Source: Paraglaciecola psychrophila 170 (GTDB lineage Bacteria; Pseudomonadota; Gammaproteobacteria; Enterobacterales; Alteromonadaceae). From it: 64,000 bases of DNA. How positions within the stretch are numbered: position 1 is the stretch's first letter; each line of letters starts with the position of its first letter. The position numbers were made by a program, and so were the translations under genes. Shown here in pieces: positions 15,004 to 34,808 of the stretch. The notes under the pieces were generated by a model, which saw nothing but the letters and a program-made list of their open reading frames with translations, ran no database searches and was not told where the DNA came from. The stretch is taken from assembly GCF_000347635.1 (NCBI RefSeq), contig NC_020514.1, forward strand, positions 2,170,001-2,234,000, written 5' to 3'.

Positions 15004-15034
15004 GTATATAAAAGAATTATTTAAGTATAAAATT
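15004..15034. promoter_or_regulatory. Two 19-bp-spaced TATAAAA repeats before dehydratase 1
   Basis: TATAAAAG (15007-15014) and TATAAAAT (15026-15033) lie exactly 19 bases apart, about 20 bases upstream of the dehydratase start. Similar pairs or triplets occur at 15751, 22817, 33588 and 34725, all at fucose-locus promoters. The inferred role is an operator for the IclR-family regulator. Confidence 0.5.
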
Positions 15035-15178
15035 AACAATGTGTCAACCGATAATTGATTTTGATGTGTTAAACATAGGTATAACGAATTTAAGGTTTTT
15101 CTCAATAAACTTGTTCGATTAGAGATTGTGATTCATTATTTCCCACTGATAATTTACATTCAGCTCGCGAGATAAGTA

Positions 15179-15625
15179 ATGGATAAACCTCAAGAAAAAG
15201 ATAAGTAGTAAAAGCGTAAACAATATCCGGCACCAGCGTTATAAAAGGGGGTGGATATTTTAGAATTGTTGTCCTGAGAAGCAGAGGGCTTAAATATTGG
15301 TGAGATAACTACACATCTAAAACGCTCTATGGGTCACTTGTTTCGAATGTTAGTGGTACTGGAACAGCGAGGATACGTATTTCTAAAACCAGGTAGTGAT
15401 AAGTATGTTTTGACCTAAAATATGTTTGGGTTCGCCCATTGCTTTCCGCCCGCAAAACGCCTCACTAGTGTCGCAACACCTATATTTAGACGTCTATATT
15501 ATGACATAGAGCAATCCTGCCATTTAGTGATCTCTTACGAAGGTAAAGGTCATGTTGTGGCCCAGCAAGACTCGCTTTCTGAAATTGTTTTCAGTGCAGG
15601 CCGGAATATGCACCCGAATACTTAA
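15179..15625 (+). pseudogene. IclR-family regulator remnant (locus 1)
   Basis: Starting MDKPQEKDK and followed by stops, the frame still shows ILELLS, EAEGLNIGEITTHLKRS, LFRMLVVLEQRGYV and SCHLVISYEGKGHVVAQQDS. These match the helix-turn-helix and early effector domain of the intact IclR protein at 21793. There are at least four stops or frame changes, and the last ~100 residues are missing. It occupies the same place (between the divergent dehydratase and the TonB receptor) as the IclR gene of locus 2, so it is the original locus 1 regulator, now dead. Confidence 0.82.
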
Positions 15626-15750
15626 GATGAACCGTGATTGTATACCTTCATTTATTTGATTTGCTCATGTATGTAAGTATTTTGTTAATTTATATTTGTT
15701 GTTTTCTATTGTCTGACAGCCTTAGGAGGGATTCTAGGTACGCTTTATTC

Positions 15751-15834
15751 GCATATAAAACTAAATTGCATATTTAAAATAAGCTTGCGCATGTAAAAAT
15801 ATTGTGCGAGTCTTGTGATGATTTTGTAAATGCA
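15751..15834 (+). promoter_or_regulatory. Triple 19-bp-spaced repeat and promoter of TonB receptor 1
   Basis: GCATATAAAAC (15751-15761), ATATTTAAAAT (15770-15780) and GCATGTAAAAA (15789-15799) are three related 11-mers at an exact 19-bp period. TTTTGTAAATGCA follows at 15822-15834; the same 13-mer, with one change, follows the repeats before FucP 1 and TonB receptor 2. It may contain the -10 region. The receptor starts at 15904. Confidence 0.5.
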
Positions 15835-15903
15835 TCAATATTTTACTGGTGAAGTAAATGTTTTTAACATTAAAATTGACGACACATAAAGGGCACAATT
15901 CAT

Positions 15904-18638
15904 ATGAAAAATAAAATAGATAATAACAGTTTCAATCAAAACAAAATTTCACATGTCATCAAATTAGTTTTAGGGATTGCAGCAACCGCTGCTTTGCAAT
16001 TGCCTTTGGCAACCAGCGCAGGTGCTCAAGAATCTGACAACGTTGAAATTATTGCCGTAAAAGGTATCCGTGGCAGTATTCTCAAAGCTCAACATCTGAA
16101 ACGAAATTCTGATTCTGTTGTTGACGCCATTTCCGCTGATGATTTAGGTAAGTTTTCCGATGCTTCGATTTCTGACGCCATACAGCGTATACCCGGGGTG
16201 CAAATTGAACGTAATGATGGAGGTCAAGAAGGCGATCGGGTATCTATTCGAGGTTTAGGACCTACATATGTGACGACGACAGTTAACGGTAGAACCGCGT
16301 TATCATCGGGCACAGAGGGTCTATCAAATTTACGCTCATTTAATCTTGAAGTAATACCTACCGATATTATATCGAACATTGTTGTTAAAAAGACGCCAAC
16401 AGCAAGTGATCCCGAATCAGGACTTGCCGGTCTGGTCGAGTTAACGACTAGAAAACCTTTGGATGAGCATCAGTACCTTAAAGGGCGGAGCTACTTTGGC
16501 TCGTTGACATTGCAAGGGGACAAAGGCTCTATTGGGAATGAAACTGGCGACCGTTTAAGTGCTTTATTTGGTGCAAAATCAGAGGATGATACTTTAGGTT
16601 TTTATGTTTCTTATCTTGATTCATCGTCATATCCAGGTAGGGATCAACTCTTTCCTACTGTAGTCACCTCAGATATTCAATTAGATAATTCTGGTGATGG
16701 TATCGCTGACGAAATTGTTGAAGATGTATTTATTATCAACGCAATTGACTTTGAACCTATTCGTGAGAAGCAATATCGAGAGTCGTGGTCAGGCGCTATT
16801 CAATGGAAGGTAAATAAAGACCTAACGATTATTGCGGATACTGTTTATACAACGTTTGATAATTCATCGATCCGTAATCGAATAGCGCCAATTTATGGTC
16901 CAGCAATTAGAAATTCTGTTTTCGATCCGAATGATATTGTTATTGATGCCAATAATACCCTGCAGTCTGTAGTTCAGGGAGGATTTTCGGATGATCAAGA
17001 AGTGAGGGTTCAATTTATCCCTTTTCTTTTTAGGAACGAAACTGAATCTTCTGTTATAGGCCTAAATGTCGACTATCAGTTAACACCAAGTTTACATGCT
17101 AATTTTGACGTTCATTATTCTGACGTTGATTATTTTCAAGATCTAGATCTGCCCATACTTTTACAAAATATTCCGGCAAATCAGGTTAGTTTCAATGCTG
17201 ATAATGGCTTGTTCAGTACAGATCTAGGTCCTATTAATAATGCGGACTATGCGCTACTTCCCGGGATGTCTTTGGTGCGAGATATTTTTATGGGTGGCGA
17301 ACAATGGGGTGCTAAAGCTGACTTTGTGTGGACTATGGATAATGGCGCTGTCGAATCAGTTGAATTTGGCGTTCGTTATACCAAAGACGATATAGTAACT
17401 ACTCGGACACATATTTCGGATGTTGCAGGCGATTTAACCGCAGACGAGTTATACAACATAAGTCAAGCAGGTATTGGTGATACTAACAGCGATTACGATT
17501 TTTATTCCGGCGACAATGTATTTAGCGACTTTCCTGATGGCGATTTGAATGTATTTTATGACAATATTCCTGCCTTAGGAGAAAGTAATTATCTAGGCGT
17601 TGCCCCGGCAGGTTCATTTGCTTACAAAGAGGACGTTTTCGCGGCATACGGTGAGGCAAATTTTTATGGTGAATTATTTGGCTTAGATTACTCAGCGAAT
17701 GCTGGCGTAAGAATCGTTAACGTGAAGTTTGAGGGGCAAGGTGCTCGTATAAACCCTGATAGTTCTATTACACCTACAGCTACGGATAACAGCTATTGGG
17801 AGTTTTTGCCTAGTGGTAATATAAATTTTAATCTCGACGATGGACTTGCGCTTCGATTAGGTATAGCAAAGGTCATGTCTCGTCCTAATCCATCGGATTT
17901 GGTTCCCAGAGAAGCGTCTAACGAACCAAACAACCCCGGCGATATACCCACGGGTCAACGTGGTAACAGTGATCTAGAACCTACAATTTCCTATATTTTT
18001 GATGCAACTTTAGAATATTACAATGATATTGAAGGGGCATACGTGGCTAGCTTCTTTTATAAAGATGTAAATGACTTTATTTTTCCGTTACCACACAGGA
18101 GACATTACCTGGACAAGGAGACACTTTATTTGATGTGCGAACACCTAAGAATTTTTCAGATGGTAATGTAGTGGGATTTGAGCTTGGCTTTAATCAACCA
18201 CTGCTTTTTTTACCTGAGCCATTTAATGGTATTGGTATACAAGCGAATTATACTTATTCAGATAGTGAGTTCGATGAAGATGTAGGGGATAATGGTTTTG
18301 GCTTCCCTGGCTCATCAAAAAATAATTTTAATTCCATTTTATATTTTGAGAAAGATGATTTTGGTGTTCGTTTAAGTTATATATTTCGTGACGATTATTT
18401 TCGTAATTTACCTGGTCAAGGTGCACAGGCTGCGAACTCTAGAGCCGTGTTTACCGAATCTGACGAACGTTTAAATATTAATGCTAGTTATGATTTAACT
18501 GAAAAGTTGTCTGTTTTTATTGATGTAAACAATATCACTGAAGAAGGGCGTCGTGATTTCTTTCAGGAAAAATCAACCTTTAACGGTTCATTTAATAGAG
18601 AACGTACCGTAACTGTTGGTATAACCGGTAGATTGTAA
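15904..18638 (+). CDS. TonB-dependent receptor, fucose locus 1 (one frameshift)
   Basis: An outer-membrane receptor of about 910 residues in two frames (15904-18171 and 18135-18638). It has a signal peptide ending near LATSAGA, then a plug domain with SADDLGKFSDASISDAIQRI, PGVQIERNDGG and EGDRVSIRGLGP, then a 22-strand barrel. Such receptors import oligosaccharides using TonB energy. The frames join near 18090, where comparison with the second copy (FPITTRETLPGQGD) shows one base missing after TTTTTCCG. It is closely similar along its whole length to the receptor at 34878. The likely cargo is fucose-containing oligosaccharides, inferred from the locus. No SusD partner is present, as usual in Gammaproteobacteria. 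Confidence 0.88.
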
Positions 18639-19064
18639 CAAGGCAATAAATTGAGCAGGTATCATAATTTTACATTAGTTATGATGCTTGTATTTTTATA
18701 TAAAAACCCAGCATATAATCATTGAGACGCTAATTCAACACGTGCAATCCCAAGTTAACGGAAGGACTAATATGGGCCAGCCTGCTCGTATTGTTAGTGA
18801 AAATGGGTATCGGTTTCAGCCTTGGCCGACTAAAAGGCGTGGAGATATCTTCGTTTATGGTGGTATGGAATCAATAACTCATTGTGATGTGGTTGTGTTA
18901 AAACAACTATGGAATTGGACGGTCGATTACCTATTAATATATGCTAAACGGGCACATCCTGATCGAGACAGGAAAACCAGCGATTGCAGTGTGGTTTGAA
19001 TCCGGTTATTTCTTAAAGTCCAACCTATGAAGAAACATTAAGATAATTAACAATAGGAACAGTT
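18639..19064. other. Gap between TonB receptor 1 and the sulfatase
   Basis: The stretch 18688-18999 is open for 103 codons (containing SENGYRFQPWPTKRRGD) but has no recognisable domain, no good ribosome-binding site and no counterpart in locus 2. It may be the remnant of an inserted gene. TTATATAAAAA at 18696-18706 resembles one half of the fucose repeat, without a partner at the 19-bp distance. Confidence 0.3.
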
Positions 19065-20984
19065 ATGAAATTTAAACGTTTACGAGTGTGTTATCCATTC
19101 AAAGCACTTAGTATATTAACGGTTTGTTTAGCTCTTTTTGCATGTCAGAAAAGTGCAGATATGGCTGATCCTTTAGACTCCAGTGCCAAAAATGCCGTCA
19201 CCTCGGCAGAGCACCCAAACATTATTTTGGTGATGACAGATGATCAAGGTTATGGCGATTTTGGCATGTTCAATAATCCCATTGTGAAAACTCCTAAAAT
19301 TGAAGAATTAGCATCACAAAGTCACCGTTTTACCAATTTTCACGTAGATCCCACCTGTTCACCCACCCGTGCTGCTTTGATGAGTGGTAAATATTCGCTG
19401 CGTGCTGGTGTTTGGCATACGGTGATGGGACGGCACATGTTATCGGACAAGCATGATATTCTCCCCGAATTATTGGGCGATGCCGGCTATAATACCGCGA
19501 TGATTGGTAAGTGGCATTTAGGTGAGAACTATCCATTTCGCCCACAAGATCAAGGTTTCAAACATGTCCTAAGTCATGGCGGCGGCGGAGTAGGCCAGTC
19601 TCCCGATTATTGGGAAAATGACCAGTTTGATGACACCTATTTCCTTAATGGTAAAGAGAAAAAATATAACGGTTTTGCTACCGATGTTTGGTTTGATGAA
19701 GCAATCGACTTTATTAAAAAACAAACGAATGAAGAGGCTCCATTTTTCTTATATTTGTCTACCAATGCGCCGCATATTCCTTGGCGAGCGCCAGAGGAAA
19801 ACATTGAGCCCTATCGCGCCTTAGGTCTGAACGACGATATGGCCAAGTTCTTCGGCATGATTACCAATATTGACGACAATATTGGACGACTACGCCAAGC
19901 GATGCGTGATGAAAAAATTGAAGATAGCACCATTTTTATTTTTATGACCGATAACGGTTCATCAATGGCGGCCAAAAGTAATGGCGAACCATTAACCTGG
20001 ATTGCAGACGACGTTAAGTTAGAGATTGAAGCGAAAACAGGCAAAAAACTGAATACCCTAAACAATTATATGCGCGAAGGTAAAGCCTCAGTGTATGAAG
20101 GTGGTCATAGAGTGCCTTTCTTTATTCGCTGGCCGAATGGAAAATTGACTGACCCTACCGATATAAACGACCTAGCCGCACATATAGACATACTGCCCAC
20201 CTTACTAGACTTAGCCGGTATCGATAGTGAAAACCTTGATACTGACGGTACGTCTTTGGTAACAGTATTAAGAGAAGGGATTAGTCTACCTGATAGAACC
20301 ATGGTAGTGACTAACCAAAGAGTGTTAAACCCTGATCCACAGCGTCCTTATGCTGTAATGCAAGGCAATTGGCGCCTTGTACATGCTGAGCACGATGGTG
20401 GTGAGGCCTTGTTTGATTTGACTACTGATCCCGGGCAAGTTAATGATATTAGTGAGCAACATCCACAGCGCGTCATTGCTATGGCTAAAACCTATGAACA
20501 ATGGTGGCAACATACTACTGGCAAGGGTACACCAACGACACGTCCAATTATCGGCAGTGAACATGAAAACCCGTCTCGTTTAACCGGTATGGATTGGTTA
20601 GCACCCAACACAAATCAAGTGCCTTGGTGGCCAGGGTTTGGCGACGACAAGTGGGGCAATGGTCATGGCTGGGTGGGTAATGAAGAAAAATTTATGGTGT
20701 CACCTTGGGCATTAAATGTGGCTGAAAACGGTAATTACGCCATAACCTTGTATTTACACGATATTCCAGCGAATAAAGTGATTCCAAAAAGCTATGCTCA
20801 TTTACAGCTTAATGGCGAGGCAACGACCATGCCGATCCCTCCGGGGGCAACATCTGTTACTTTCAATGTTGCATTAGATTCTGGTGATATCGATATTCGC
20901 GCTTGGTTTGATCATCAATCCGATGAAAGCGGATTAAGTAAAGGCTTGGCAGCATTTTATATGTATGTCGAAAAGCTGAATTAA
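19065..20984 (+). CDS. Lipoprotein sulfatase, formylglycine type
   Basis: A 639-residue type I sulfatase. Residues 1-27 form a lipoprotein signal (LALFAC, lipobox cysteine 27), so it is probably anchored in the periplasm. Metal ligands lie in MTDDQGYGDFG (D59, D60). The maturation motif CSPTR at 98-102 has the cysteine that becomes formylglycine, followed by AALMSGKYSLRAG. Other matches are GKWHLGE, TNAPHIPW and FMTDNGSS. A C-terminal domain of about 130 residues lies beyond the sulfatase core. It would need a formylglycine-generating enzyme, not seen here. Placed inside fucose locus 1, it probably removes sulfate from fucan oligosaccharides. Locus 2 has no counterpart. Confidence 0.92.
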   Translation: MKFKRLRVCYPFKALSILTVCLALFACQKSADMADPLDSSAKNAVTSAEHPNIILVMTDDQGYGDFGMFNNPIVKTPKIEELASQSHRFTNFHVDPTCSPTRAALMSGKYSLRAGVWHTVMGRHMLSDKHDILPELLGDAGYNTAMIGKWHLGENYPFRPQDQGFKHVLSHGGGGVGQSPDYWENDQFDDTYFLNGKEKKYNGFATDVWFDEAIDFIKKQTNEEAPFFLYLSTNAPHIPWRAPEENIEPYRALGLNDDMAKFFGMITNIDDNIGRLRQAMRDEKIEDSTIFIFMTDNGSSMAAKSNGEPLTWIADDVKLEIEAKTGKKLNTLNNYMREGKASVYEGGHRVPFFIRWPNGKLTDPTDINDLAAHIDILPTLLDLAGIDSENLDTDGTSLVTVLREGISLPDRTMVVTNQRVLNPDPQRPYAVMQGNWRLVHAEHDGGEALFDLTTDPGQVNDISEQHPQRVIAMAKTYEQWWQHTTGKGTPTTRPIIGSEHENPSRLTGMDWLAPNTNQVPWWPGFGDDKWGNGHGWVGNEEKFMVSPWALNVAENGNYAITLYLHDIPANKVIPKSYAHLQLNGEATTMPIPPGATSVTFNVALDSGDIDIRAWFDHQSDESGLSKGLAAFYMYVEKLN

Positions 20985-21080
20985 CGCACCTTTAATTAGA
21001 ACAGAATAATAAATAAGGAAAAAAATCACATTTTTTATCTCATTTTAAAGTGTGCGTAAAATATTTAGCCTTTTGTTTTG

Positions 21081-21475
21081 AAGAAAATGAAATGGCCAAA
21101 CGCGTTTATTTGTCCGTGCAGTGGTCATGATCGGAACTATGAAATAAGTGATCGTCGTTTATACGATGTGGGCATGGTAAAAAACAAACATCGGTGATGG
21201 CGGGGACGCGGTTTCATGGCAGGCACCTCTCTTTAGTTGAGTGGTTTTGGGTTATCTTTTTTCTTGACTTAGATAAAGGCAGTATATCGGCCCTTAGCTT
21301 AAGCAAACGTATTGAAGTGAACTGGCGGACAGCCAGGCTGATATTAAAGAAACTCGGATTGGCTATGGGCCACAGGGATGGTTTGTATCAATTAAACGGT
21401 ACCATTAAGCTGGATGATGCCCTGATTGGCGGCAGACACAAAGGCAAGCGAGGCCTCACCTAGCCCTAAAATACA
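21081..21475 (+). pseudogene. IS1595-family transposase remnant
   Basis: Across two frames the stretch reads KWPNAFICPCSGHDRNYEI, then MAGTRFHGRHLSLVEWFW, ISALSLSKRIEVNWRTARLI and LYQLNGTIKLDDALIGG. That is the zinc ribbon followed by the first catalytic aspartates of IS1595-type (ISXO2-like) transposases. It is broken by a frame change near 21193 and stops after KGKRGLT, where the DDE domain should continue. The element ends are not visible. It lies between the sulfatase and the intact IclR gene, marking the seam of an insertion into locus 1. Confidence 0.8.
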
Positions 21476-21540
21476 AAACGCCCAATTAGATTCATCGAGC
21501 GTTTTAATGTGAAATAAGTGTCAACCTATTTCAGGACGGG

Positions 21541-21792
21541 ACTGTAAAAACGTTCGAAATAAGACGGACAGGCATTTATGATTTTATTTCAGCGTAGAGT
21601 GTTGCTAAGCTTTCTGAAAAATTAGATGTTAGCAATTATCAAGGCTCTTTTATCAGTAGTTTGAAGGCACATAACGCTAAGCTATTAAATGCAGCAATCC
21701 TATGGTTTGAGCAAAACAAATTTGTTCTTACAAAAAATGTAACGCATTATGCTGCCAAGCGATTATTACCTAGGTTTAAACAAGGACACTAA
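21541..21792 (+). pseudogene. 3' end of an unknown gene before the IclR gene
   Basis: A frame broken by one stop gives VAKLSEKLDVSNYQGSF followed by SLKAHNAKLLNAAILWFE and NVTHYAAKRLLPRFKQGH, ending 12 bases before the IclR start. The amino-acid composition is that of a real helical protein end, but I do not recognise the family. It was presumably carried along with the IclR-FucP-mutarotase block when the IS1595 remnant and sulfatase came to lie here. Confidence 0.3.
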
Positions 21793-22590
21793 ATGACTAA
21801 ACCGACTGAGATATTAGAACCATCTAAACGTAAAACGTACAGCGCACCAGCACTTGAAAAAGGATTGGATATTTTGGAGCTACTGGCAAATCAAGCTGAA
21901 GGCATGAACATTAGTGAGATCACCAAAACGTTAAATAGATCAGTTGGTGAATTATTTAGAATGTTAGTTGTGTTGGAACAACGTGGTTATGTATCTCTTC
22001 AACTTGGCAGTGATAGGTACAGGTTAACGTTAAAAATGTTTGGATTGGCCCATCGTTTTCCTCCGATTAAACGTTTGACTAGTGTTTCAGCCCCTGTTTT
22101 ACAACGTTTATCCTACGCCATAGAGCAGTCATGTCATTTGGTTATTTATTATGAAGGTAAAGGACATGTGGTTGTGCAACAGGACTCTCCTTCAGAAAGA
22201 GTATTTAGTGTTCGATTAGGCGCTGAAGCACCATTGATGAATACCTGCTCTGGTCATCTGTTGTTGGCATTTGCAGACCAAAGTACCCGCAGCCAAATGT
22301 TAAGTCGTATTCCAGCACATCACCCTAATGAAAACGGATTTAATATTGATAAGATGGTGAGGAAGGTACTGGGTCAGGGTTACGAAAGCATCCATAGTGC
22401 GCAAGCTCAGGGTATACAAGACATTGGATACCCTATTTTTGACTACCAGGATCAAGCGGTGGCAGCCTTAATTGTGCCCTTCTTTGAATACCTCGATGCA
22501 TCACGTCAAACGAGTGCGGCCGACGCTCATCAATTAATTCAACAAGCAGCCCAGGAAATATCCATTGCTTTAGGGTTTGACGCTAGCTAG
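21793..22590 (+). CDS. IclR-family transcriptional regulator (intact copy)
   Basis: A 265-residue regulator, normal for IclR. The winged helix-turn-helix spans about residues 18-80 (ALEKGLDILELLANQAEG, ISEITKTLNRSVGELFRMLVVLEQRGYVSL). The effector-binding domain follows, with GHVVVQQDSPSERVFSVRLG, MNTCSGHLLLAFA and the motif GYESIHSAQAQGIQDIGYPIFD. It is nearly the same protein as the dead copies at 15179 and 33781, so it is the only functional IclR in the window. It probably controls both fucose loci in response to fucose or a pathway acid. The candidate operator is the 19-bp-spaced repeat. Confidence 0.93.
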   Translation: MTKPTEILEPSKRKTYSAPALEKGLDILELLANQAEGMNISEITKTLNRSVGELFRMLVVLEQRGYVSLQLGSDRYRLTLKMFGLAHRFPPIKRLTSVSAPVLQRLSYAIEQSCHLVIYYEGKGHVVVQQDSPSERVFSVRLGAEAPLMNTCSGHLLLAFADQSTRSQMLSRIPAHHPNENGFNIDKMVRKVLGQGYESIHSAQAQGIQDIGYPIFDYQDQAVAALIVPFFEYLDASRQTSAADAHQLIQQAAQEISIALGFDAS

Positions 22591-22816
22591 TTGAAATGAA
22601 TGTCTACTGCGAACGGCCCAGAAGCACAACCTGAACACCACAAGAGATAGTTATTTAGACTGACTAAACGACTACATCTTGCAGTATCCATCTTGTACCT
22701 CTGGAACGCTCTTGCTACGACCCCATTCCAGGATGAACACTAGCTAAATCTTCAAGCACCGCTTAGTTACCCGAATCTTCTTAACGATATGCAAAGGACT
22801 TCTACATCGCTATTTT

Positions 22817-22899
22817 GTATGTAAAATTAATTTCTATATATAAAATTTATTGTACTTGTTATTGTTTTGTGAGAACATTTAGCTGATTTTGTAAATGCA
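22817..22899 (+). promoter_or_regulatory. 19-bp-spaced repeat and promoter before FucP 1
   Basis: GTATGTAAAAT (22817-22827) and ATATATAAAAT (22836-22846) are 19 bases apart. TTTTGTAAATGCA lies at 22887-22899, identical to the 13-mer before TonB receptor 1. It sits in the 445-base gap between the IclR gene and FucP 1, about 140 bases upstream of the FucP start; the rest of the gap shows nothing else. Confidence 0.5.
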
Positions 22900-23035
22900 C
22901 GCGTTTGTTTTTTTGTTTACAACTATAGGTATCTTGGGTTGTTAGCAAAGCGGTCATTTGCATCACCGTTATTTATGTATTTTAGAGGCAACGCCATCAC
23001 GGGCCGCCATTTAAATTAACTGGGTTGGGATTCAA

Positions 23036-24460
23036 ATGACAATGCAAGTAGAAGCAAGTAATACACAACAAGAATCAGAACAGACCAGTAAATCTCATCA
23101 TGCTTTAATTGGTCAGGGTATGTTGTTGCCATTTTTGTTTGTTGCGCTGCTATTCCCACTGTGGGGATTTGCCAACGACGTGACTAATCCACTTGTTAAA
23201 GCATTTAAAGATATTTTTTTAATTACCAATGCACAAAGTAGCATGGTGCAATTTTCCTTTTATTTGGGTTACGGGGTTATGGCCATCCCAGCGGCGATAT
23301 TTATCCGCAAATATTCTTACAAATCCGGAATTTTGTTGGGTCTAGCCTTATATGCGGTGGGGGCACTGTTGTTTATTCCCGCCAGCGTGCAGCAAGAATT
23401 TAATTTCTTTTTAGCGGCGCTGTGTATTCTGACCTGTGGTTTAGCCTTACTCGAAACAACCGCAAACCCCTATATTTTGTCCATGGGTGATCCCGAAACG
23501 GCAACTCGTAGGCTTAATCTGGCCCAGGCATTTAACCCCATAGGTTCTATTACGGGAATGTTTGTGGCTTCCACGGTAATCTTAAACAAACTTCAGGTTG
23601 AGGAGTTTAGGGCGGCCGAACGTGCAGTTCACCCGGAGTATGCAGAAATGTTACCGAGTGTTGTCGATGGCAAATTGACAGCTGCCTTAAGTGAATTTGC
23701 CCAGAGTCAGCCAGCGGCACATCAAGCCATGCAATCCGCTGATTTAATAACAATCCGAGGTCCCTATATCGCTATTGCAGCGGTGGTTGTGGTGCTGTTT
23801 TTGGTCTTTTTGTTTAGTAAATTACCACGTACGATTTCACACGATCACCCATTAACCTTACACGAGCTGAAGGCGACCTTTAAACGATTGCTGATTAATC
23901 GATGTTACATTGAAGGGGTTGTGGCACAAGCATTTTATGTGGGTGCACAAATCATGTGTTGGACCTTCATCATCCACTATGGCATGACCTCGGTCGGCCT
24001 GACCGCAGCACAAGCTCAGGGTTACAATATAGTCGCGATGTCGTTATTTTTAGTCAGTCGTTTTGTGTGTACGTTTTTACTGGGTTTTATACGCCCGGGC
24101 CCGTTGTTGATGTTGTTGGCCTTAGGCGGCATCATTTTGTCCTTGGGCACCATATTTTTGGGTGGTATGTTAGGACTGTACTGCTTGGTCGGCATTTCGG
24201 TGTGTATGTCTTTAATGTTCCCTACAATCTACGGCATCGCTTTAAAAGACTTAGGGGATGATGCGAGTTTAGGCTCGGCGGGTTTAGTGATGGCAATAGT
24301 GGGGGGCGCACTGATGCCGCCACTACAGGCATCGATGATCGATGGCGCTTCTTTTATCGGCAATATCCCATCAGTACAAAGCTCATTTTTATTGCCGTTA
24401 ATGTGTTTCGTGGTCATCAGTATTTACGGATATCGGGTGCAGCATGTCTACAAAGTTTGA
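23036..24460 (+). CDS. fucP: FucP-type L-fucose:H+ symporter (locus 1, intact)
   Basis: A 474-residue major facilitator superfamily permease with twelve predicted helices, of the FucP/GluP branch. Signatures are FPLWGFANDVTNPLVKAFKD in helix 1, GLALLETTANPYILSMGDP (its glutamate matches the one needed for proton coupling in E. coli FucP) and LNLAQAFNPIGS. It imports L-fucose across the inner membrane. The locus 2 copy lacks 30 residues that are present here (helix 3 region), so this is the working permease. The mutarotase gene follows after 35 bases and is probably co-transcribed. Confidence 0.93.
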   Translation: MTMQVEASNTQQESEQTSKSHHALIGQGMLLPFLFVALLFPLWGFANDVTNPLVKAFKDIFLITNAQSSMVQFSFYLGYGVMAIPAAIFIRKYSYKSGILLGLALYAVGALLFIPASVQQEFNFFLAALCILTCGLALLETTANPYILSMGDPETATRRLNLAQAFNPIGSITGMFVASTVILNKLQVEEFRAAERAVHPEYAEMLPSVVDGKLTAALSEFAQSQPAAHQAMQSADLITIRGPYIAIAAVVVVLFLVFLFSKLPRTISHDHPLTLHELKATFKRLLINRCYIEGVVAQAFYVGAQIMCWTFIIHYGMTSVGLTAAQAQGYNIVAMSLFLVSRFVCTFLLGFIRPGPLLMLLALGGIILSLGTIFLGGMLGLYCLVGISVCMSLMFPTIYGIALKDLGDDASLGSAGLVMAIVGGALMPPLQASMIDGASFIGNIPSVQSSFLLPLMCFVVISIYGYRVQHVYKV

Positions 24461-24495
24461 GCAATCATGCCAAAAACAAGTTGGAGTCAGTGTGA

Positions 24496-24843: not shown

Positions 24844-25082
24844 TGCATGAATATCTGGCTGAACAGTTGGGCATTTAGTTAGCCGGGAACTTTATCTACA
24901 CAGCTGTTAAAGTAGTGCGCAATTTGTAACAATATAAAACATTTGTTTAAAGCGTTTTTACACACATCAAAGATGTCTGAAATTCTGCAATCAATGTCCA
25001 TTTTTGAAGGGTTAAAATACTGATCTTCCCCTAAATTTGTAGACACTTTTTACTAAGAAACCGAAGTAAGGTAAAAAGTGTT

Positions 25083-25361: not shown

Positions 25362-25393
25362 AATCACGACTCCATGTTTACCGCGTTAACACC

Positions 25394-26206: not shown

Positions 26207-26227
26207 GTGTCTACAAAACTGGGGGAA

Positions 26228-27387: not shown

Positions 27388-27397
27388 ATTATTCTTA

Positions 27398-28252
27398 TTA
27401 CATTATGTTTGTTAATGCTGTAACCGTTTGTTTTTGTATGCCTAATTTTTCAATACCCAGCTGAATGTTATCACCCGCATTCAGATAAACTGGCGGTTTT
27501 TGACCTAAACCCACCCCCGGTGGTGTGCCGGTTGAAATCACGTCACCCGGTTGTAGACTCATAAACTGACTTAAGTAACTCACAATAAAAGCGGGCTTAA
27601 ATACCATAGTACGGCTGCTACCATTTTGATAACGTTTGCCATTGACTTCAAGCCACATATCTAAATTGGTTGGGTCGCCTACTTCATCGCTAGTGACTAA
27701 CCATGGGCCGATAGGTCCAAAGGTATCGCAACCTTTGCCCTTGTCCCATTGACTGCCGCGCTCCAGCTGAAAACTGCGCTCAGATACGTCATTACATACA
27801 CAATAACCTGCTATATATGCCGGAGCCTCTTGCTCTGTGACATAGCTGGCCTCTTTACCTATGACTAAGGCCAGTTCAACTTCCCAGTCCATCTTAGTGC
27901 TATTTTTAGGTTTGATGATATTGTCATCTGGCCCACATATGGCGCTGGTGGCCTTGGTAAATACTTCGGGCTCATCCGGTAGCGTCATACCTGATTCGGC
28001 GGCGTGATCGCTGTAATTAAGCCCTATACAAATGAACTTACCTACGCTGCCAATACAAGGCCCTATTCGAGTACCTTTTGGTGCCAAGGGCAGGGTGCTT
28101 AAATCTAATGCTTTTATTTTTTCTAAACTGGAGACATCAAGCATATCCCCAGCAATGTCATGCACAACACCTTCAAGACTGCGGATATCGCCGTTGTCGT
28201 CTAGTATCCCCGGTTTTTCATAGCCACTTTCGCCAAAACGTAATAATTTCAT
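27398..28252 (-). CDS. FAH-family 2,4-diketo-3-deoxy-L-fuconate hydrolase
   Basis: A 284-residue fumarylacetoacetate hydrolase-family enzyme. Metal ligands: the glutamates of DWEVELALVIG and the aspartate of CNDVSERSFQ. The substrate-site region is FICIGLNYSDHAAE and the end motif GDVISTGTPPGVGLG. In the oxidative L-fucose route this family splits 2,4-diketo-3-deoxy-L-fuconate into pyruvate and L-lactate. Assignment rests on the neighbours: the SDR, lactonase, aldo/keto reductase and lactate dehydrogenase follow upstream on the same strand. It is the last gene of the operon and exists in one copy only. Confidence 0.88.
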   Translation of the reverse strand: MKLLRFGESGYEKPGILDDNGDIRSLEGVVHDIAGDMLDVSSLEKIKALDLSTLPLAPKGTRIGPCIGSVGKFICIGLNYSDHAAESGMTLPDEPEVFTKATSAICGPDDNIIKPKNSTKMDWEVELALVIGKEASYVTEQEAPAYIAGYCVCNDVSERSFQLERGSQWDKGKGCDTFGPIGPWLVTSDEVGDPTNLDMWLEVNGKRYQNGSSRTMVFKPAFIVSYLSQFMSLQPGDVISTGTPPGVGLGQKPPVYLNAGDNIQLGIEKLGIQKQTVTALTNIM

Positions 28253-28378
28253 TGTTTAGTCCTGTAATGTGAATTTTAAATTTTTGAGCTAAAAGCTATA
28301 CAGTGACTCCCAATGGATAAAGTCTTTATTCTTTTAAATCTCGTAGCTCGAAGGTATAAACTAGCAGCTTCCACTTTA

Positions 28379-29155
28379 TTAGTTATTTAAGGTGACAAAG
28401 CCGCCATCAATTGGGAAGTTACTACCTGTTATAAACGCTGCCTCATCCGAGCATAGATAGGCAATCAAGGCTGCAATTTCGTCGGCGTGTCCCATGCGTC
28501 CCATTGGTTGGCTCTTTGACAGTTTTTCAAACATCTCAACGCGATTATCGGGATAATTTTTATCTAAAAAGTTGTCTACAAATGGGGTGTGTACTCGACC
28601 CGGAGCGATACAATTGCAGCGAATACCATCTTTTACATAATCTTTGGCAATGGAATAGGTCATGGTTAATACCGCTCCTTTACTCATTGAGTAGGCAAAA
28701 CGATCTGCAATACCAACTGAAGAGGCAACCGAAGCAAGGTTTATAATCACGCCGTTTTTACGTTCTTTCATGGCTTTGATACAAGCTAATGTTGTGTTGT
28801 ACACACCCTTAACATTGACATTGTATAGACGATCAAAATCCGCCTCGCTTGTCTGCTCAATATTGCCAATATGCGCGATACCCGCGTTGTTAATGAGCAT
28901 ATCTATGCAATGGGTATGCTGAATTTCAGCCAACACCTCATTAACCTGAGCATGGTTAGACACATCACAGGCATAGGTGCTGACAGTATCGCCATTGGCT
29001 AAAATTTTGTCGGCGGTCTGTTGTGCTGCCTCTAAAGTCAAATCCAAGGCAATAATATGCGCACCTTCTTGGGCCAAACGCAGGCAGACACTTTGGCCTA
29101 TACCACTGCCTCCGCCAGTGACCAGTGCGGTTTTATTTCTTAATCTTAGACCCAT
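28379..29155 (-). CDS. SDR 2-keto-3-deoxy-L-fuconate dehydrogenase
   Basis: A 258-residue classical short-chain dehydrogenase. The NAD(P) loop TGGGSGIG is at 13-20, NNAG at 89-92, catalytic serine at about 142 (NLASVAS) and Y155-x3-K159 in FAYSMSKG. D38 at the end of strand 2 favours NAD. Its inferred reaction is oxidation of 2-keto-3-deoxy-L-fuconate at C4 to the 2,4-diketo acid used by the FAH enzyme next to it. A 126-base gap separates it from that gene; 34 bases separate it from the lactonase gene. Confidence 0.9.
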   Translation of the reverse strand: MGLRLRNKTALVTGGGSGIGQSVCLRLAQEGAHIIALDLTLEAAQQTADKILANGDTVSTYACDVSNHAQVNEVLAEIQHTHCIDMLINNAGIAHIGNIEQTSEADFDRLYNVNVKGVYNTTLACIKAMKERKNGVIINLASVASSVGIADRFAYSMSKGAVLTMTYSIAKDYVKDGIRCNCIAPGRVHTPFVDNFLDKNYPDNRVEMFEKLSKSQPMGRMGHADEIAALIAYLCSDEAAFITGSNFPIDGGFVTLNN

Positions 29156-29189
29156 AACTTACCTTTAAGTATTACGTTGCCCAATTGAG

Positions 29190-30020
29190 TTAAGTGGACA
29201 ATTGATAAAAGTTGATCGCAGTTTTAGACCAAATTTGTGTTTGTTGTACTGAGCAAATAGAACACAAAAATGCTTCGGTTAAACTGACCCACTGTGAATA
29301 ATCTGTGGCCAAATTTAATACTGGCCAATCGCTGCCCCACATCAAGCGAGATGCTGTAAAAGTAGTCAACAAATGCTGCATATATGGGATTAAACAATCG
29401 AAATCAGGATTATGTCCCGCTTCAGTCACTAAGCCTGATAACTTGCAATACACATTGTTAAGTTGAGCGAGGGCTTCAATATCTGCAGCCCATTGTTCAA
29501 ATTGCTGTCCTGCAATATCAGGTTTTGCGGCATGATCTATGACTATTTTGAGCGTTGGATACCTTTGCGCCAATGTGAAAAGCGCTTTTAAATGTCTAGG
29601 TTTGACCAACGCATCGAAGCATAAGCCCAATTGCATCAGAGTAAAAAATGCCGTACTTAATTCTTCTTTAAGCATCCAATCATCATCATTAATATCTTGG
29701 ATCATTGGACGGATCCCTTTGAAGTAAGGACTCCTCGACAGATTTGCTAAGTGATAGGGGGCTTCAATGCTTTGCATATCAACCCAGCCGACCACACCCG
29801 CTATAAAATCCGTAGTTTCCGCTAGCGATAGCATATATTTAGTTTCCGCTATATCTGGCGCCGCTTGCACTAATACGGTTCTGTCTATGCTTGATTTTTT
29901 CAGTAAAGGACGAAGGTCGTCCGCTGAAAAGTCTTTATATATTGCTCCCATATCTTCAGTGAGCCAATTGTAATAACCGAGATCACGTTTCCAGAAATGC
30001 TGATGGCTGTCAATTCGCAT
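29190..30020 (-). CDS. Amidohydrolase-2 family L-fucono-lactonase
   Basis: About 276 residues of the amidohydrolase 2 superfamily. It opens MRIDSHQHFWKRDLGYYNWL, with the metal-binding HxH and the FW that is typical of sugar lactonases. Later signatures are FKGIRPM, KIVIDHAAKP and RLMWGSDWPV (catalytic aspartate). It hydrolyses L-fucono-lactone to L-fuconate. I chose the ATG at 30020; a GTG four codons upstream is also open. The start overlaps the end of the aldo/keto reductase gene, so the two are translationally coupled. Confidence 0.88.
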   Translation of the reverse strand: MRIDSHQHFWKRDLGYYNWLTEDMGAIYKDFSADDLRPLLKKSSIDRTVLVQAAPDIAETKYMLSLAETTDFIAGVVGWVDMQSIEAPYHLANLSRSPYFKGIRPMIQDINDDDWMLKEELSTAFFTLMQLGLCFDALVKPRHLKALFTLAQRYPTLKIVIDHAAKPDIAGQQFEQWAADIEALAQLNNVYCKLSGLVTEAGHNPDFDCLIPYMQHLLTTFTASRLMWGSDWPVLNLATDYSQWVSLTEAFLCSICSVQQTQIWSKTAINFYQLST

Positions 30021-31083
30021 GTAGAACGTCACTCGCTTTTACTGCAGTTGGCGCAGGTGCGTCTTTATCCAGCAAGTCTGCGGCTTTGAGGCTTTGCCAA
30101 AAGTCATTGGGTATAGCTTGGTGAAATAAGTCGATGGTGTTTTGTATTCTGGAGATATTGCCTAATCCAGGTATGACAGATGCAACGCTTGGATGGGCAA
30201 GTGGAAATTGCAGAGCGGCAGCGGCCAATGTGACATGGTACTCATCACAGATCATCTCAATTTTAGCGACGCGGTCAATTATTTCAGCTGAAGCCGGCGC
30301 ATAGTTATAATTCGCTGTGCCTTTGCCCCTTACTCCTGTCGCCAAAATACCTGAATTGTAGGGGCCTCCTATAATAATCGAACAATTGCGTGCTTGGCAC
30401 TTCGGCAGAAACGTCTGCAAAGACTCTTGCTCAAGCAAGCTATAGCGCCCCGCTAGTAAGAAACAATCCCAGTCACCATAATCCATAGCTTGTTCGCAGA
30501 CTTGATATTCATTAACGCCCAACCCTATGGCTTTTACTAAACCTTGACTGCGCAGCTCATTCATTGCCTTATAGCCACCCTTCATAGCAATAGGGAAGTG
30601 TTTGTCATTTTCTGAACCGTGGGTATCACTACCAATATCATGCATATACAGAATATCAATTCTATCTAAACCCAAACGCTGAAGACTGTCTTCAAAGGAG
30701 CGCATAATGCCGTCATAACTGTAGTCATACTGAATATCAAATGGCATAGGTGAGGCAAAACCGTGTCGCTCTTTGGCGTATCCTGCTGGTTTGAGTAACC
30801 GTCCAACTTTAGTTGAGAGTATGTAATCCTTGCCTTGCAGCGAACGTAATAAATCGCCAGTACGCCTTTCGCTCAAACCTTGGCCGTAATGAGGTGCGGT
30901 ATCAAAGTGACGAAAGCCAGCTTGCCAAGCTGCATCTAACACTGCTGTTGATTCTTGATCACTGATACTGTAATACAGGTTGCCAAGAGGTGCACAGCCA
31001 AAACCTAAAGTATCGACTTCTAGTCCGGTACTGCCGATCTGTTTTTTACTTATCTTCTTGTCTATTAATGGGGGATTTTGCAT
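30010..31083 (-). CDS. Aldo/keto reductase, L-fucose 1-dehydrogenase
   Basis: A 357-residue aldo/keto reductase. The catalytic tetrad is D61 and Y66 (HFDTAPHYGQG), K92 (LSTKVGR) and H148 (LYMHD). The C-terminal cofactor segment has VASVIPGLGN. Relatives in oxidative fucose clusters oxidise L-fucose at C1 with NAD(P)+ to the lactone, the first step of the route. It lies between the lactate dehydrogenase gene (4-base gap) and the lactonase gene (overlap). Locus 1 has no copy, so this is the only entry enzyme. Confidence 0.9.
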   Translation of the reverse strand: MQNPPLIDKKISKKQIGSTGLEVDTLGFGCAPLGNLYYSISDQESTAVLDAAWQAGFRHFDTAPHYGQGLSERRTGDLLRSLQGKDYILSTKVGRLLKPAGYAKERHGFASPMPFDIQYDYSYDGIMRSFEDSLQRLGLDRIDILYMHDIGSDTHGSENDKHFPIAMKGGYKAMNELRSQGLVKAIGLGVNEYQVCEQAMDYGDWDCFLLAGRYSLLEQESLQTFLPKCQARNCSIIIGGPYNSGILATGVRGKGTANYNYAPASAEIIDRVAKIEMICDEYHVTLAAAALQFPLAHPSVASVIPGLGNISRIQNTIDLFHQAIPNDFWQSLKAADLLDKDAPAPTAVKASDVLHAN

Positions 31084-31087
31084 CTGA

Positions 31088-32239
31088 TTAATCCTTCACT
31101 AGAAACTGGGGTAAATCTGAAACAGTCGCGCAGCCTAATTGATTCATCACTTGTTCAAGTTGCATTTTTAAGCAATTGATAGTGTGCACGCCACCTTTAT
31201 CACCTAATGCGCCTACACCATAAACAAAAGGACGGCCTAAAAACGTAAAGTCAGCACCACAAGCGAGTGCTGACGCTATATTGGTGCCTGAGCGTAAACC
31301 GCTGTCCATAAATATCTTAATATCTTTGGCATATTTAACGACCGCTTTTTGTAAAGGAGCAACCGGAGATTCACCTACATCCAGTTGCCGCGCTCCGTGA
31401 TTCGACATCACCACCGCATCGGCACCTAGAGAGATAGCCGCAGCCACATCTTCTTGGTTAATTAGGCCTTTTATAATTAGAGGTCCTTGCCAAAAGTCGC
31501 GAATTGGTTTGAGTCCGTCGATATCCACACGGCCCATCACTGTTTTGTTCATAAAAGCGGCGAGTTGGTCTGTCGGCATGCCCTTAGGCATATAGGGTTT
31601 AAGCGTTTGCATTTCTGGTTTACCGGCGAGGGCAGTTTCGTATAACCAACGTGGACAGCCCAGCATTTGTAAAATATTAGTCAAGGTCATTTTAGGCGGC
31701 ATCGCCAAACCATTTTTCATGTCTCTGGGTCTGTAACCAAAAGTCGGCACATCCACTGTGACCACTAATACTTTGTAACCAGCCTCTTTGATCCGCCTTA
31801 ATAAATCTTCACGAATAACTGAATCGGTAGGATTATAAAGTTGATACCAGGCCTTACCTTCCGATATTTCTGCAATGGTTTCTAGACTGGTAGATGATAC
31901 TGTACTGAGTACATAAGGAATGTTTAATTCGGCCGCTGCTTTGGCCAGAATCTCTGGTGCTTTAGGCCACATCAATCCTTGCAAACCTATAGGTGCAATA
32001 CCAAAAGGCGCATCGTATCTATGCCCAAACAACTCCACTGACATATCTGATTTATCAAAAGGCTTTAACAACTGACTGCGCAGCTGTACCGCTTGAATAT
32101 CATTAAGATTTCGCGCCAGACCAATTTCGTCATGACACCCTCCTTCAAGATAATCAAAAGCAAAACTTGGTATACGCTGGCGTGCGCGCTTTTTCAAAGA
32201 AACCGTGTCAGGAAACTTTGGGTCAAAATAATCATTCAT
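31088..32239 (-). CDS. lldD: FMN-dependent L-lactate dehydrogenase (locus 2, intact)
   Basis: A 383-residue member of the FMN alpha-hydroxyacid dehydrogenase family. Catalytic residues: K257 (IIKGL), H281 and R284 (SNHGARQLD) and Y30 (FDYLEGG). The phosphate-binding end has GLRSGTNIASALACGADFTFLGRPFVYG. It oxidises L-lactate to pyruvate and feeds electrons to the respiratory chain. Here it would clear the L-lactate made by the diketo-acid hydrolase. Its ATG shares a base with the dehydratase stop (TAATG). The locus 1 homologue is a truncated pseudogene. Confidence 0.93.
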   Translation of the reverse strand: MNDYFDPKFPDTVSLKKRARQRIPSFAFDYLEGGCHDEIGLARNLNDIQAVQLRSQLLKPFDKSDMSVELFGHRYDAPFGIAPIGLQGLMWPKAPEILAKAAAELNIPYVLSTVSSTSLETIAEISEGKAWYQLYNPTDSVIREDLLRRIKEAGYKVLVVTVDVPTFGYRPRDMKNGLAMPPKMTLTNILQMLGCPRWLYETALAGKPEMQTLKPYMPKGMPTDQLAAFMNKTVMGRVDIDGLKPIRDFWQGPLIIKGLINQEDVAAAISLGADAVVMSNHGARQLDVGESPVAPLQKAVVKYAKDIKIFMDSGLRSGTNIASALACGADFTFLGRPFVYGVGALGDKGGVHTINCLKMQLEQVMNQLGCATVSDLPQFLVKD

Positions 32240-33570
32240 TAAGAAGCTAGCTTATCTGTTTGTTTAAGACGTTCTTGCCATTCACTTCCGGTTGGATAAG
32301 TGAAGGCGGCGACACTTTTTTCGAACATTTCAATGCTGTAGCCAGGCTTGCTAGGGGCTACATAGGCTCCATCTTTAATCACACATGGATCAGTGAAATG
32401 CTCATGTAAATGGTCAACAAACTCTACCACGCGATCAGTTAAGTCGGCGGAAATATGCACATAATCAATCATCGATAGATGCTGCACATATTCACACAAA
32501 CCCACACCACCGGCATGGGGGCAGACTGGTTTCCCATATTTAGCCGCCATCAAGTAAACTGCCAGTATTTCATTCAAACTAGCTAGTCTACAAGAATCTA
32601 TCTGTACTATATCAATTGCATCGTTGGCGATAAATTGCTTAAACATTATTCTATTATGACAATGCTCACCTGTTGCGACCTTGATATCGCCAATATTCTG
32701 TTTAATTTTTTTATGCCCAAATATATCATCGGGGCTGGTGGGTTCTTCAATAAACCATGGTTTGACATGAGCAAGTTGGTTGGTCCACTCAATTGCTTCG
32801 TCCACCTCCCAGATTTGGTTGGCATCAATCATTAATTTCGTATCATTACCAATCACTTTTCTGGCAATTTCACAACGCCTTATGTCACTCTCTAAATCTT
32901 GGCCTACTTTTAATTTTACATGTTTGAAGCCTTGTTCAAGAGCCTCTTCACATAATTTAGCGAGTTTCTCATCGCTATAACCTAACCAGCCGGCCGACGT
33001 GGTATACGACGGGTAGCCATTGTGTTCTAAATATTGAATACGCTCTTGTTTGGTTTCATGATTCTTGGTGACCATCTCCAAGGCTTCTTGTTTTGTCAGT
33101 GCGTCGCTTAAATATCTAAAGTCGATACAGTTAACAAATTGCTCTGGGCTCATATCGGCTAATAGTCGCCACAGTGGTTTACCCTCGCTGCGAGCCCACA
33201 TATCCCATACGGCATTGACCACGGCACCAATAGCCATATGAATCACTCCCTTTTCTGGGCCTAACCACCGAAGTTGACTGTCTGAACGCAAGCTATCATA
33301 AAAATTATTAATGTCTTTGGTGATATCGTTAAAGTCTTTACCTATAACCAAATGTTTAAGGGCTTCAATAGCTACGCAGCAAATGTCGTTGCCTCTGCCT
33401 ATGGTAAAGACTAAACCGAAACCTTCGTTACCTTTTTCCGTTTCTAAACATAAATAAGCAGCTGAATAATCAGGATCTTTATTTGTGGCATCTGACCCAT
33501 CTAATGATTTTGAAGTAGGAAAACGAATGTCGTGAGTTTCCAGTGAAATGATTTTGTTTGTTTTACTCAT
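32239..33570 (-). CDS. L-fuconate dehydratase, enolase superfamily (locus 2)
   Basis: A 443-residue enzyme, highly similar to the copy at 13654-14988. K219 and K221 (HVKLKVGQD), D249 (MIDANQIW), E276 (FIEEPTSP), E302 (GEHCHN) and the histidine of CPHAGGVG near 352 make the active site; their order and spacing match characterised L-fuconate dehydratase. It turns L-fuconate into 2-keto-3-deoxy-L-fuconate. It is the first gene of the minus-strand operon and carries the shared 19-bp repeats directly upstream. Both copies of this gene are intact, unlike most other duplicated genes here. Confidence 0.93.
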   Translation of the reverse strand: MSKTNKIISLETHDIRFPTSKSLDGSDATNKDPDYSAAYLCLETEKGNEGFGLVFTIGRGNDICCVAIEALKHLVIGKDFNDITKDINNFYDSLRSDSQLRWLGPEKGVIHMAIGAVVNAVWDMWARSEGKPLWRLLADMSPEQFVNCIDFRYLSDALTKQEALEMVTKNHETKQERIQYLEHNGYPSYTTSAGWLGYSDEKLAKLCEEALEQGFKHVKLKVGQDLESDIRRCEIARKVIGNDTKLMIDANQIWEVDEAIEWTNQLAHVKPWFIEEPTSPDDIFGHKKIKQNIGDIKVATGEHCHNRIMFKQFIANDAIDIVQIDSCRLASLNEILAVYLMAAKYGKPVCPHAGGVGLCEYVQHLSMIDYVHISADLTDRVVEFVDHLHEHFTDPCVIKDGAYVAPSKPGYSIEMFEKSVAAFTYPTGSEWQERLKQTDKLAS

Positions 33571-33587
33571 AACCGCTCTTATTTATA

Positions 33588-33614
33588 TATAAAATTTAAA
33601 CTCGCATATAAAAT
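33588..33614. promoter_or_regulatory. 19-bp-spaced repeats before dehydratase 2
   Basis: TATAAAAT occurs at 33588-33595 and again at 33607-33614, exactly 19 bases apart, within CGCATATAAAATTA in the second case. The pair lies about 20 to 45 bases upstream of the operon start at 33570, overlapping the expected promoter. Same layout as 15004-15034. Confidence 0.5.
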
Positions 33615-33780
33615 TAGCTGTTTGTTGTTAAAATGTCAACAGTTTACTGAGAAGTGTTTAATGGAATATGTAGGATGTTTTTATCTTGTAGCAGCCACTT
33701 GTTCTCTTTATGAATGTAACGCAGTATTATAGTCTTAAAGGTGCCCCTCATTTACATTCTTAGCATAAAAGGAGTTATTG

Positions 33781-34578
33781 ATGACAAAACAGTTTGATAA
33801 AGAAGAACTGGGAAAACGTAAAACATACAGTGCCCCAGCTTTAGAAAAAGGCATGGATATCATGGAGTTATTAGCTGTTGAAGCTGAAGGTTTAAATATC
33901 GGCGAGATTACCAAAAAGCTCAATAAATCGGTATGAGAGCTATTCAGAATGTTAGTGGTGCTGCAGCAGCGGAGATATGTATCACTAGAGCAGGGCAGTG
34001 ATAGGTACACCCTCACTCTAAAAATGTTTGGTTTAGCACATCGTTTCCCACCAGTAAAAAGGCTGACTAGTGAATCTGCCCCTGTGCTGCGTAGGTTGTC
34101 TTATGATATCGAACAATCCTGCCATCTTGTTATTTATTATGAAGGGAAAGGGCATGTAGTAGTCCAACAAAACTCGCCTTCTGAACGGGTATTTAGCGTG
34201 CGATTGGGTGCAGAAGCGCCTTTAATGAATACTTGCTCAGGGCATTTGTTATTGGCGTTTGCTGATGAATATACTCGTCAACAAATGTTAAGTCGTATCC
34301 CTGTACATCACCTTAATGAAGATGTTTTAGATATGGATAAAATGGTACGGAAGGTGTTGAGCCAGGGTTATGAAAGTATTCATAGTGCCCAAGCACAGGG
34401 CATTCAGGATATTGGCTATCCAGTTTTTGATTATCAAGACCAAGCGGTAGCTGCTTTGATTGTGCCTTACTTTAAATATTTAGATGGATCTCACCAAACA
34501 GTCGTGGAAGATTCCCATAGTATAATTAAACAAGCTGCTAGAGATATTTCTGTCGCATTAGGATACGACCCTGATTAA
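33781..34578 (+). pseudogene. IclR-family regulator with nonsense codon (locus 2)
   Basis: The ATG at 33781 (AAAGGAG before it) begins a frame closely matching the intact IclR protein: RKTYSAPALEKGMDIMELL, then LNIGEITKKLNKSV. Codon 52 (33934-33936) is TGA where the intact copy has glycine, within the helix-turn-helix. The rest, through to GYDPD, is open and conserved. A product restarting at 33949 would lack DNA binding but keep the effector domain. It is therefore a recent nonsense pseudogene, or the base is wrong. Confidence 0.88.
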
Positions 34579-34724
34579 AATCCCATCATTATGTTTGTTC
34601 CTTATAAATCATTTAAAGTTTACCCATCATAATCCCATTCATATTTTTAATATCAATTGTTAATCATGTGTTTCTAGAAGTGTGGCGCAAGTCCATTTCG
34701 GAGTCCGTAATTTTTTTATGTGAC

Positions 34725-34808
34725 GTATATAAAATATGATTCCATATGTGAAATATAGTTGCGATTGTAAAATAAATGTGAGATTCTTTAGTTGGTTTTG
34801 TAAATGTA
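34725..34808 (+). promoter_or_regulatory. Triple 19-bp-spaced repeat and promoter of TonB receptor 2
   Basis: GTATATAAAAT (34725-34735), ATATGTGAAAT (34744-34754) and GATTGTAAAAT (34763-34773) repeat every 19 bases. TTTTGTAAATGTA follows at 34796-34808, the same 23-base distance after the third repeat as in front of TonB receptor 1. The receptor starts at 34878. Confidence 0.52.

Follow-up and report, generated by a model that had tools for sequence, protein, structure and literature searches.

The window analysed here, 64,000 nucleotides of Paraglaciecola psychrophila 170 (contig NC_020514.1, positions 2,170,001 to 2,234,000), holds an L-fucose locus in which short A+T-rich units recur at a period of 19 bp upstream of two dehydratase genes, two TonB receptor genes and the gene for the L-fucose:H+ symporter FucP. 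Comparison across genomes makes it very probable that these repeats are tandem operators of the IclR-family protein encoded at 21793, hereafter IclR1: the motif and its spacing recur near fucose and fucoidan genes in genomes that carry an IclR1 orthologue, in support of the IclR-family operator put forward in the original prediction. Units spaced at 19 bp are present at all five places named there (dehydratase 1, receptor 1, FucP, dehydratase 2 and receptor 2), although these places amount to about three promoter types, because two of the five are paralogous copies of two others. The repeat starts first reported are borne out as places, some of them with a 3-base offset due to anchoring (15004/15023 and 33585/33604 instead of 15007/15026 and 33588/33607).

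The unit is a 14-bp dyad with the consensus TTTYATATRTRAAA, of which the 11-mer noticed earlier is the right-hand part. In an alignment of 48 pairs, to which the window and 18 of 19 related loci contribute and which may include chance matches, the dyads follow one another head to tail with their axes at 15.5 and 34.5; their centres are 19.0 bp apart, within the 18-22 bp of IclR-family tandem operators. The constant period claimed at the outset therefore stands, whereas the units are palindromic dyads and not plain direct repeats. The four bases preceding the 11-mer, to which the search matrix was blind, are T (73%), T (92%), T (76%) and C or T (94%) across 112 units with strands pooled, and the emergence of a left half among matches of such a matrix argues that the units are palindromic. 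Simple direct repeats are ruled out, since these bases complete the dyad in relatives. Candidates for the 48-pair alignment were picked with a symmetrised matrix, and covariation at its dyads shows no excess, the observed base pairing being 0.61 and 0.65 against 0.65 and 0.67 predicted from the columns. The motif lists and the alignment comprise the window and 19 loci, leaving aside L051 (conspecific with L050), named records of already included genomes, L066-L069 (regulators 40-49% identical, with pairs seen nearby), the G+C-rich L081, L082 and L084, and the Rhizobiales loci L085-L102.

Within the window, where all dyad scores quoted come from a matrix trained without it, the tandem pair of dehydratase 1 occupies 15000..15032 (15000-15013 and 15019-15032; scores 16.1 and 10.9) and matches the dyad-pair pattern, TTTYRHATDYRAAA-N5-TTTYRHATDYRAAA, at 2 mismatches. 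The FucP pair at 22813 and 22832 (22813..22845; 14.9 and 13.6) has 1 mismatch, and that of dehydratase 2 and its operon at 33581 and 33600 (33581..33613; 16.0 and 7.8) has 3. Three dyads 19 bp apart precede each receptor gene, starting at 15747, 15766 and 15785 for receptor 1 (15747..15798; 13.0, 14.4 and 11.5) and at 34721, 34740 and 34759 for receptor 2 (34721..34772; 7.6, 13.0 and 6.5), and FucP has no more than two good units. In the window, the dehydratase, iclR and receptor genes have all been duplicated, and the likeness of their sites could in principle be nothing but a leftover of locus duplication. This explanation has next to no probability, since the paralogous upstream regions are alike at just 54-57% of aligned bases and yet the sites persist, and the FucP promoter and 18 other loci carry the same pairs, so that the relatives already contradict it.

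The signal lies in the spacing and not in the single unit: the lone 11-mer is hardly enriched, with 63 matches in the window at up to 2 mismatches against 51.5 expected, a count attained by 5 of 100 shuffles. Across the five intergenic stretches, a matrix built from the relatives alone finds 8 above-threshold pairs at 19 bp, whereas 1000 dinucleotide shuffles of the same stretches yield 0.017 on average and never more than 1, in line with the earlier argument against chance. With the window excluded from training, thresholds of 12 and 14 give 8 such pairs between 13 and 42 kb of the window, none in the other 35 kb and one in 380 kb of control DNA from the same genome; at thresholds of 16 and 18 the counts are 7, 0 and 1. 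The A+T-richness of the units and their nearness to likely −10 boxes would fit arrays that acted mainly as promoter-enhancing or bent DNA and called for no specific protein; the single pair in the control DNA, the fixed spacing of 19 and the near absence of pairs from the shuffles make that account highly improbable.

Across the genome (5.41 Mb, a single contig), the dyad-pair pattern at up to 2 mismatches matches four times, always at the fucose locus (dehydratase 1, receptor 1 twice and FucP), against none for the control; at up to 3 mismatches it matches ten times, seven of them at the locus and now including dehydratase 2 and receptor 2, against two for the control. The spaced 11-mer pattern is less selective, with five places at up to 2 mismatches, four of them at the locus, and 15 matches on both strands at up to 3, seven of them at the locus; its reversed control then gives 10, and selectivity is lost. 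An extra match of the spaced 11-mer, at C1:675578, was discarded, there being no dyad-pair match at that position. The three off-locus dyad-pair matches all have 3 mismatches; two fall within open reading frames (ORFs) and one lies 15 bp before a rhodopsin-like ORF. This last, a weak pair at G000:C1:1832186-1832218 (L131 7187-7219) before an ORF named by eye, is probably due to chance, as the control gives two matches in the same genome. The original prediction had stated that equal frequency at unrelated promoters would tell against it, and the genome scan found the pattern concentrated at the fucose locus instead.

The link to the regulator comes from 395 genomes of the family, searched for IclR1 orthologues and for dyad pairs. 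IclR1 finds a match at E <= 1e-40 in 35 of them, and in 17, the window's own genome included, the protein is at least 57% identical; surroundings of up to 20 kb were read for 20 of the matching genomes, plus named records. The dyad-pair pattern at up to 2 mismatches matches 39 of the 395 genomes (reversed control, 15) and tracks the regulator, occurring in 15 of the 17 genomes with an orthologue at that identity versus 24 of the 378 without; the Fisher p of 6e-15 overstates the contrast, given the kinship of the genomes and the origin of the pattern in most of the 17. One of the two orthologue genomes that lack a match, G273, has three at 3 mismatches. A matrix trained on the 12 units of the window alone finds, in 15 related loci, 56 pairs at 19 bp versus 1-19 at each other spacing from 11 to 44 (both strands, threshold 14), and a leave-one-locus-out matrix finds 43 among the relatives versus 9 or fewer at each other spacing between 14 and 40 (same threshold). 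Pairs at 19 bp occur in 18 of the 19 related loci; of the 46 pairs listed for such loci, 36 are no more than about 600 bp from where a labelled fucose-locus gene starts, and 10 are not. The recognition-helix region is nearly invariant among the gammaproteobacterial IclR orthologues aligned.

Could another regulator of fucose genes own the sites, with iclR merely a neighbour? The 24 genomes that match the pattern without a close orthologue would fit such an owner, and fucose genes often travel with iclR, so that neighbourhood alone cannot separate the two readings. In the Rhizobiales, beside IclR proteins 40-43% identical to IclR1, the best pair in the 400 bp directly before iclR is spaced at 19 bp in 17 of 18 loci when spacings from 14 to 30 are tried; most of these genomes are close kin, which makes the 17 not independent, and the sequence of L085 differs. 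The best spacing in L093 is 15 bp, L089 reaches only 6.4, and L085 scores 16.2 at 19 bp in a near tie with 16.1 at 25. Three Rhizobiales loci were compared, and the sole homologue of a fucose-locus gene found in them is a short-chain dehydrogenase/reductase (SDR) at 39-40% identity; a Pfam search of 10 ORFs of L098 found no pathway set. Tandem palindromes with 18-22 bp between centres are, moreover, a published trait of the IclR family in the accessible text of PMC8222616. Ownership by another regulator is accordingly unlikely.

Several observations weigh against IclR1 as owner of the sites. No dyad pair precedes iclR1 itself, the sulfatase gene or the second permease gene (37721). G199, whose IclR is 75% identical, has no site genome-wide even at 3 mismatches, and the stretches of it that were read hold no fucose-pathway homologue. 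Conversely, the 24 matching genomes that lack a close orthologue include only four (G023, G053, G196 and G306) in which a match lies at most about 450 bp from a more distantly related IclR gene, the others being without explanation. In G115, six matches are copies of one repeated sequence and were taken as an artefact. Spacings of 17 and 21 are also slightly raised among relatives, and the G+C-rich loci L081, L082 and L084 (58-63% G+C) have weak pairs or none. The pattern and most motif lists were built from the same relatives by seeking 19-bp pairs, and counts at the training loci are hence not independent. Promoter placement, too, has its exceptions: at dehydratase 1 TTGACA stands 15 bases before the first dyad, and G001 has none.

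Placement is otherwise regular at the dehydratase genes, enolase-superfamily members whose closest homologues (E <= 1e-120) comprise nine genes in eight of the 395 genomes. The tandem pair starts 42-66 bp before the matched start in all nine, and in seven TTGACA begins 26-28 bases before the first dyad, which makes it likely that these genes are repressed from the sites. The hexamer 17 bp after TTGACA in these seven, TAATTT in five and TATATT and TAATAT in one each, overlaps or abuts the dyad, a position that would suit a repressor. The probable promoter of the dehydratase 2 operon (33611..33639, minus strand) pairs TTGACA at 33639-33634, across 17 bp, with TAATTT at 33616-33611, which overlaps the dyad that polymerase would reach first. 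As a −10 element TAATTT matches poorly, and this promoter is missing from the list of a promoter scanner, which found no more promoters than in shuffles. A possible promoter of dehydratase 1 (15019..15047, minus strand) would combine TTGACA at 15047-15042, again across 17 bp, with TTAAAT at 15024-15019, which overlaps a dyad. The mechanical ORF of dehydratase 1, also on the minus strand, starts at 15105 and would enclose the dyad pair; the start that matches dehydratase 2 and the relatives presumably lies near 14988.

We posit that each 14-bp dyad probably takes one IclR1 dimer and that two dyads, their centres separated by 19 bp or nearly two helical turns, could hold a dimer of dimers, the receptor promoters carrying three dyads. 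Without the sugar signal, plausibly L-fucose or an acid of the pathway, IclR1 would cover the −10 region of the dehydratase promoter and keep the catabolic operon off, whereas the receptor and permease promoters would be held from the group of upstream sites, both receptors having in addition a weaker pair downstream. Upon binding the signal, IclR1 would be released or change shape, and fucose uptake and breakdown would switch on together.

The downstream pair absorbs an element that the original prediction had listed separately, TTTTGTAAATG[CT]A. Its position was given correctly: the step of 23 bases from the end of the last repeat is exact at both receptors (15799 to 15822 and 34773 to 34796), and at both receptors and FucP it starts 70-71 bp after the first unit begins, the receptors having a third unit between the first pair and the element and FucP no third good unit. 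Its independence is doubtful, for the element can be re-read as a dyad box. By the starts of the best boxes it stands 37-39 bp past the third dyad of the window's receptors and is followed at 19 bp by a weak dyad (TTTTACTGGTGAAG; TTTTGCTGGTGAAA). The weak pair of receptor 1 (15822..15854) consists of TTTTGTAAATGCAT at 15822 and TTTTACTGGTGAAG at 15841, 19 bp apart, with scores of 6.8 and 2.0 and a layout shared with relatives; that of receptor 2, at 34798 and 34817 (34798..34830), also 19 bp apart, scores 10.8 and 4.3, or 15.1 as a pair, and holds most of TTTTGTAAATGTA (34796-34808). The same downstream layout recurs in L055 and L053 (37, 19) and, with steps of 39 and 20, in the P. arctica-type L134. 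Four of the five Colwellia-type receptor promoters examined (L056, L057, L060 and L062) have a two-plus-two layout, with pairs at 0 and 19, then a gap of 36, then 19; L063 departs from it.

We therefore read TTTTGTAAATG[CT]A as best explained, on sequence grounds, by the first box of a second, weaker operator pair. That it is an unrelated element is mostly rejected, as the receptor 2 copy scores within a 19-bp pair under a matrix trained without the window. Two observations oppose the weak-pair reading. The FucP copy, a single box TTTTGTAAATGCAC at 22887..22900 with a score of 5.6, has no partner at 19 bp, the next weak dyad lying 22 bp on; and TTTTGTAAATG is identical at six promoters, with a seventh (L050) differing, which is stricter than a weak operator requires. 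Because this conservation exceeds such a need, a second role for the element is possible. By eye, a TGTG(C/A)GA-like stretch lies between the operator groups at the receptors and FucP (15800-15821, 34774-34795 and 22860-22886), possibly a promoter or the site of a second regulator, and some Colwellia-type relatives have TATAGT-like hexamers there. More tentatively, and less likely than not, the receptor promoters may each be bracketed by an array of five sites, with three dyads on the upstream side and the weaker pair downstream across a gap of 37-39 bp, one assembly bridging both sides as a switch or as a dual activator and repressor. In such an arrangement the protein could be a simple repressor at the enzyme operon and a sharp on/off switch at the receptors. 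The alternating direction of the boxes would also allow dimers to pair across dyad junctions.

The genes at 27398..33570, all on the minus strand and presumably one operon, encode dehydratase 2, a flavin mononucleotide (FMN) dehydrogenase, an aldo/keto reductase, a fuconolactonase-like amidohydrolase, an SDR and a 2,4-didehydro-3-deoxy-L-rhamnonate hydrolase-like protein, the fuconolactonase-like and hydrolase-like proteins falling below their NCBIfam cut-offs; together with FucP, the set represents the non-phosphorylating L-fucose pathway. FucP (23036..24460, plus strand) matches TIGR00885 at 511.9 bits against a cut-off of 280.4. The proposed owner of the sites, iclR1 (21793..22590, plus strand; 265 amino acids), is the only intact one of three close iclR copies and exceeds the Pfam cut-offs for HTH_IclR (41.6 bits versus 22) and IclR_C (51.3 versus 24). 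Of the others, both on the plus strand, iclR2 (33781..34578) is 80% identical and has one in-frame TGA, and the iclR3 remnant (15179..15598) is 69% identical over 140 residues with 5 stops. The TonB receptor genes look broken as well: receptor 1 (15904-18638) lies in two frames that meet near 18150, and receptor 2 (34878-37605) is split into two ORFs (34878-35486 and 35752-37605). The duplicated fucose locus thus seems to be decaying at its receptors, at iclR2 through the TGA, and in remnants of iclR3 and of an FMN dehydrogenase, while its operators persist. Upstream of iclR1, degraded transposase-like sequence is seen by eye at 21080-21470 of the window, and it may have cut the gene off from its original divergent promoter.

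Against the NCBIfam models, IclR1 stays far below the cut-offs of the KdgR equivalog (83.6 bits versus 275) and IclR (33.2 versus 380) models and matches the PcaR/PcaU/PobR subfamily model weakly (86.0 versus 284.75). PcaU and PobR regulate genes for aromatic acids, and KdgR is a relative with a solved structure (5y6i).

On sequence evidence alone, the dyad pair points to a regulon. In Aliiglaciecola lipolytica D2R05 (G183), the pattern at up to 3 mismatches matches 15 times, with ten matches at C1:222-275 kb, three at 298-302 kb and two on another contig, and marks sulfatase, dehydratase, receptor and permease genes along about 80 kb. The ten matches at C1:222-275 kb fall between ORFs of at least 200 amino acids, one of them at the edge of an ORF that runs off L124, and adjoin a dehydratase gene, two receptor genes, sulfatase genes and others, in a cluster that includes GH29 and GH95 fucosidases. 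The cluster also holds a second IclR gene, 34% identical (L124:12837-13619), with one of the ten matches beside it, a pair whose owner is uncertain; paralogous regulators may share the operator type. The pair offers a testable operator code for the use of fucose and fucoidan by marine bacteria, and its spacing appears to have survived while the regulator diverged widely between gammaproteobacteria and Rhizobiales.

The closest precedents lie within the IclR family itself. In the accessible text of their survey of 1340 IclR-family regulators, Suvorova and Gelfand (2021; PMC8222616) predict tandem palindromes in 94 orthologous groups, with a centre-to-centre distance of 18-22 bp, mostly 19-21, and interpret them as tetramer sites; the regulator described here may already be listed among those groups. 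Compared by eye with the consensuses given there, GKTYCRYW3-4RYGRAMC for group 1 and TGRAACAN1-2TGTTYCA for group 2, the outer boxes TTTC and GAAA agree. The junction between dyads, GAAA-N5-TTTC, has the box spacing of group 2 (GRAA-CANTG-TTYC) and lacks its inner CA/TG, and group 1 has 7 or 8 bases between C and G where TTTC-N6-GAAA has 6. The same text describes A+T-rich palindromes for KdgR and IclR, as found here, although IclR1 scores so far below both models, and three-box sites for PcaU and PobR, members of the family with more than two half-sites and GTNCG-type boxes; the addition there is a third half-site, whereas here whole dyads stand in tandem. FucR (Cj0480c) of Campylobacter jejuni represses L-fucose genes as an IclR-type regulator, as knock-out and gel shift show, and was not released upon addition of L-fucose (PMC12566272); the main text of that paper contains none of the terms palindrom, inverted repeat, binding site and footprint. 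It shares IclR-type control of fucose genes and differs in organism and gene set, a likeness drawn from description and not from sequence. FucR sites have been predicted in other bacteria as well, the accessible text of PMC5507952 not naming the family to which that FucR belongs. A literature search that left most subscription journals and supplements out of reach turned up no report of a fucose regulator of the IclR family in this group. What the locus presents is probably a known IclR switch design, here on a marine fucose and fucoidan gene set.

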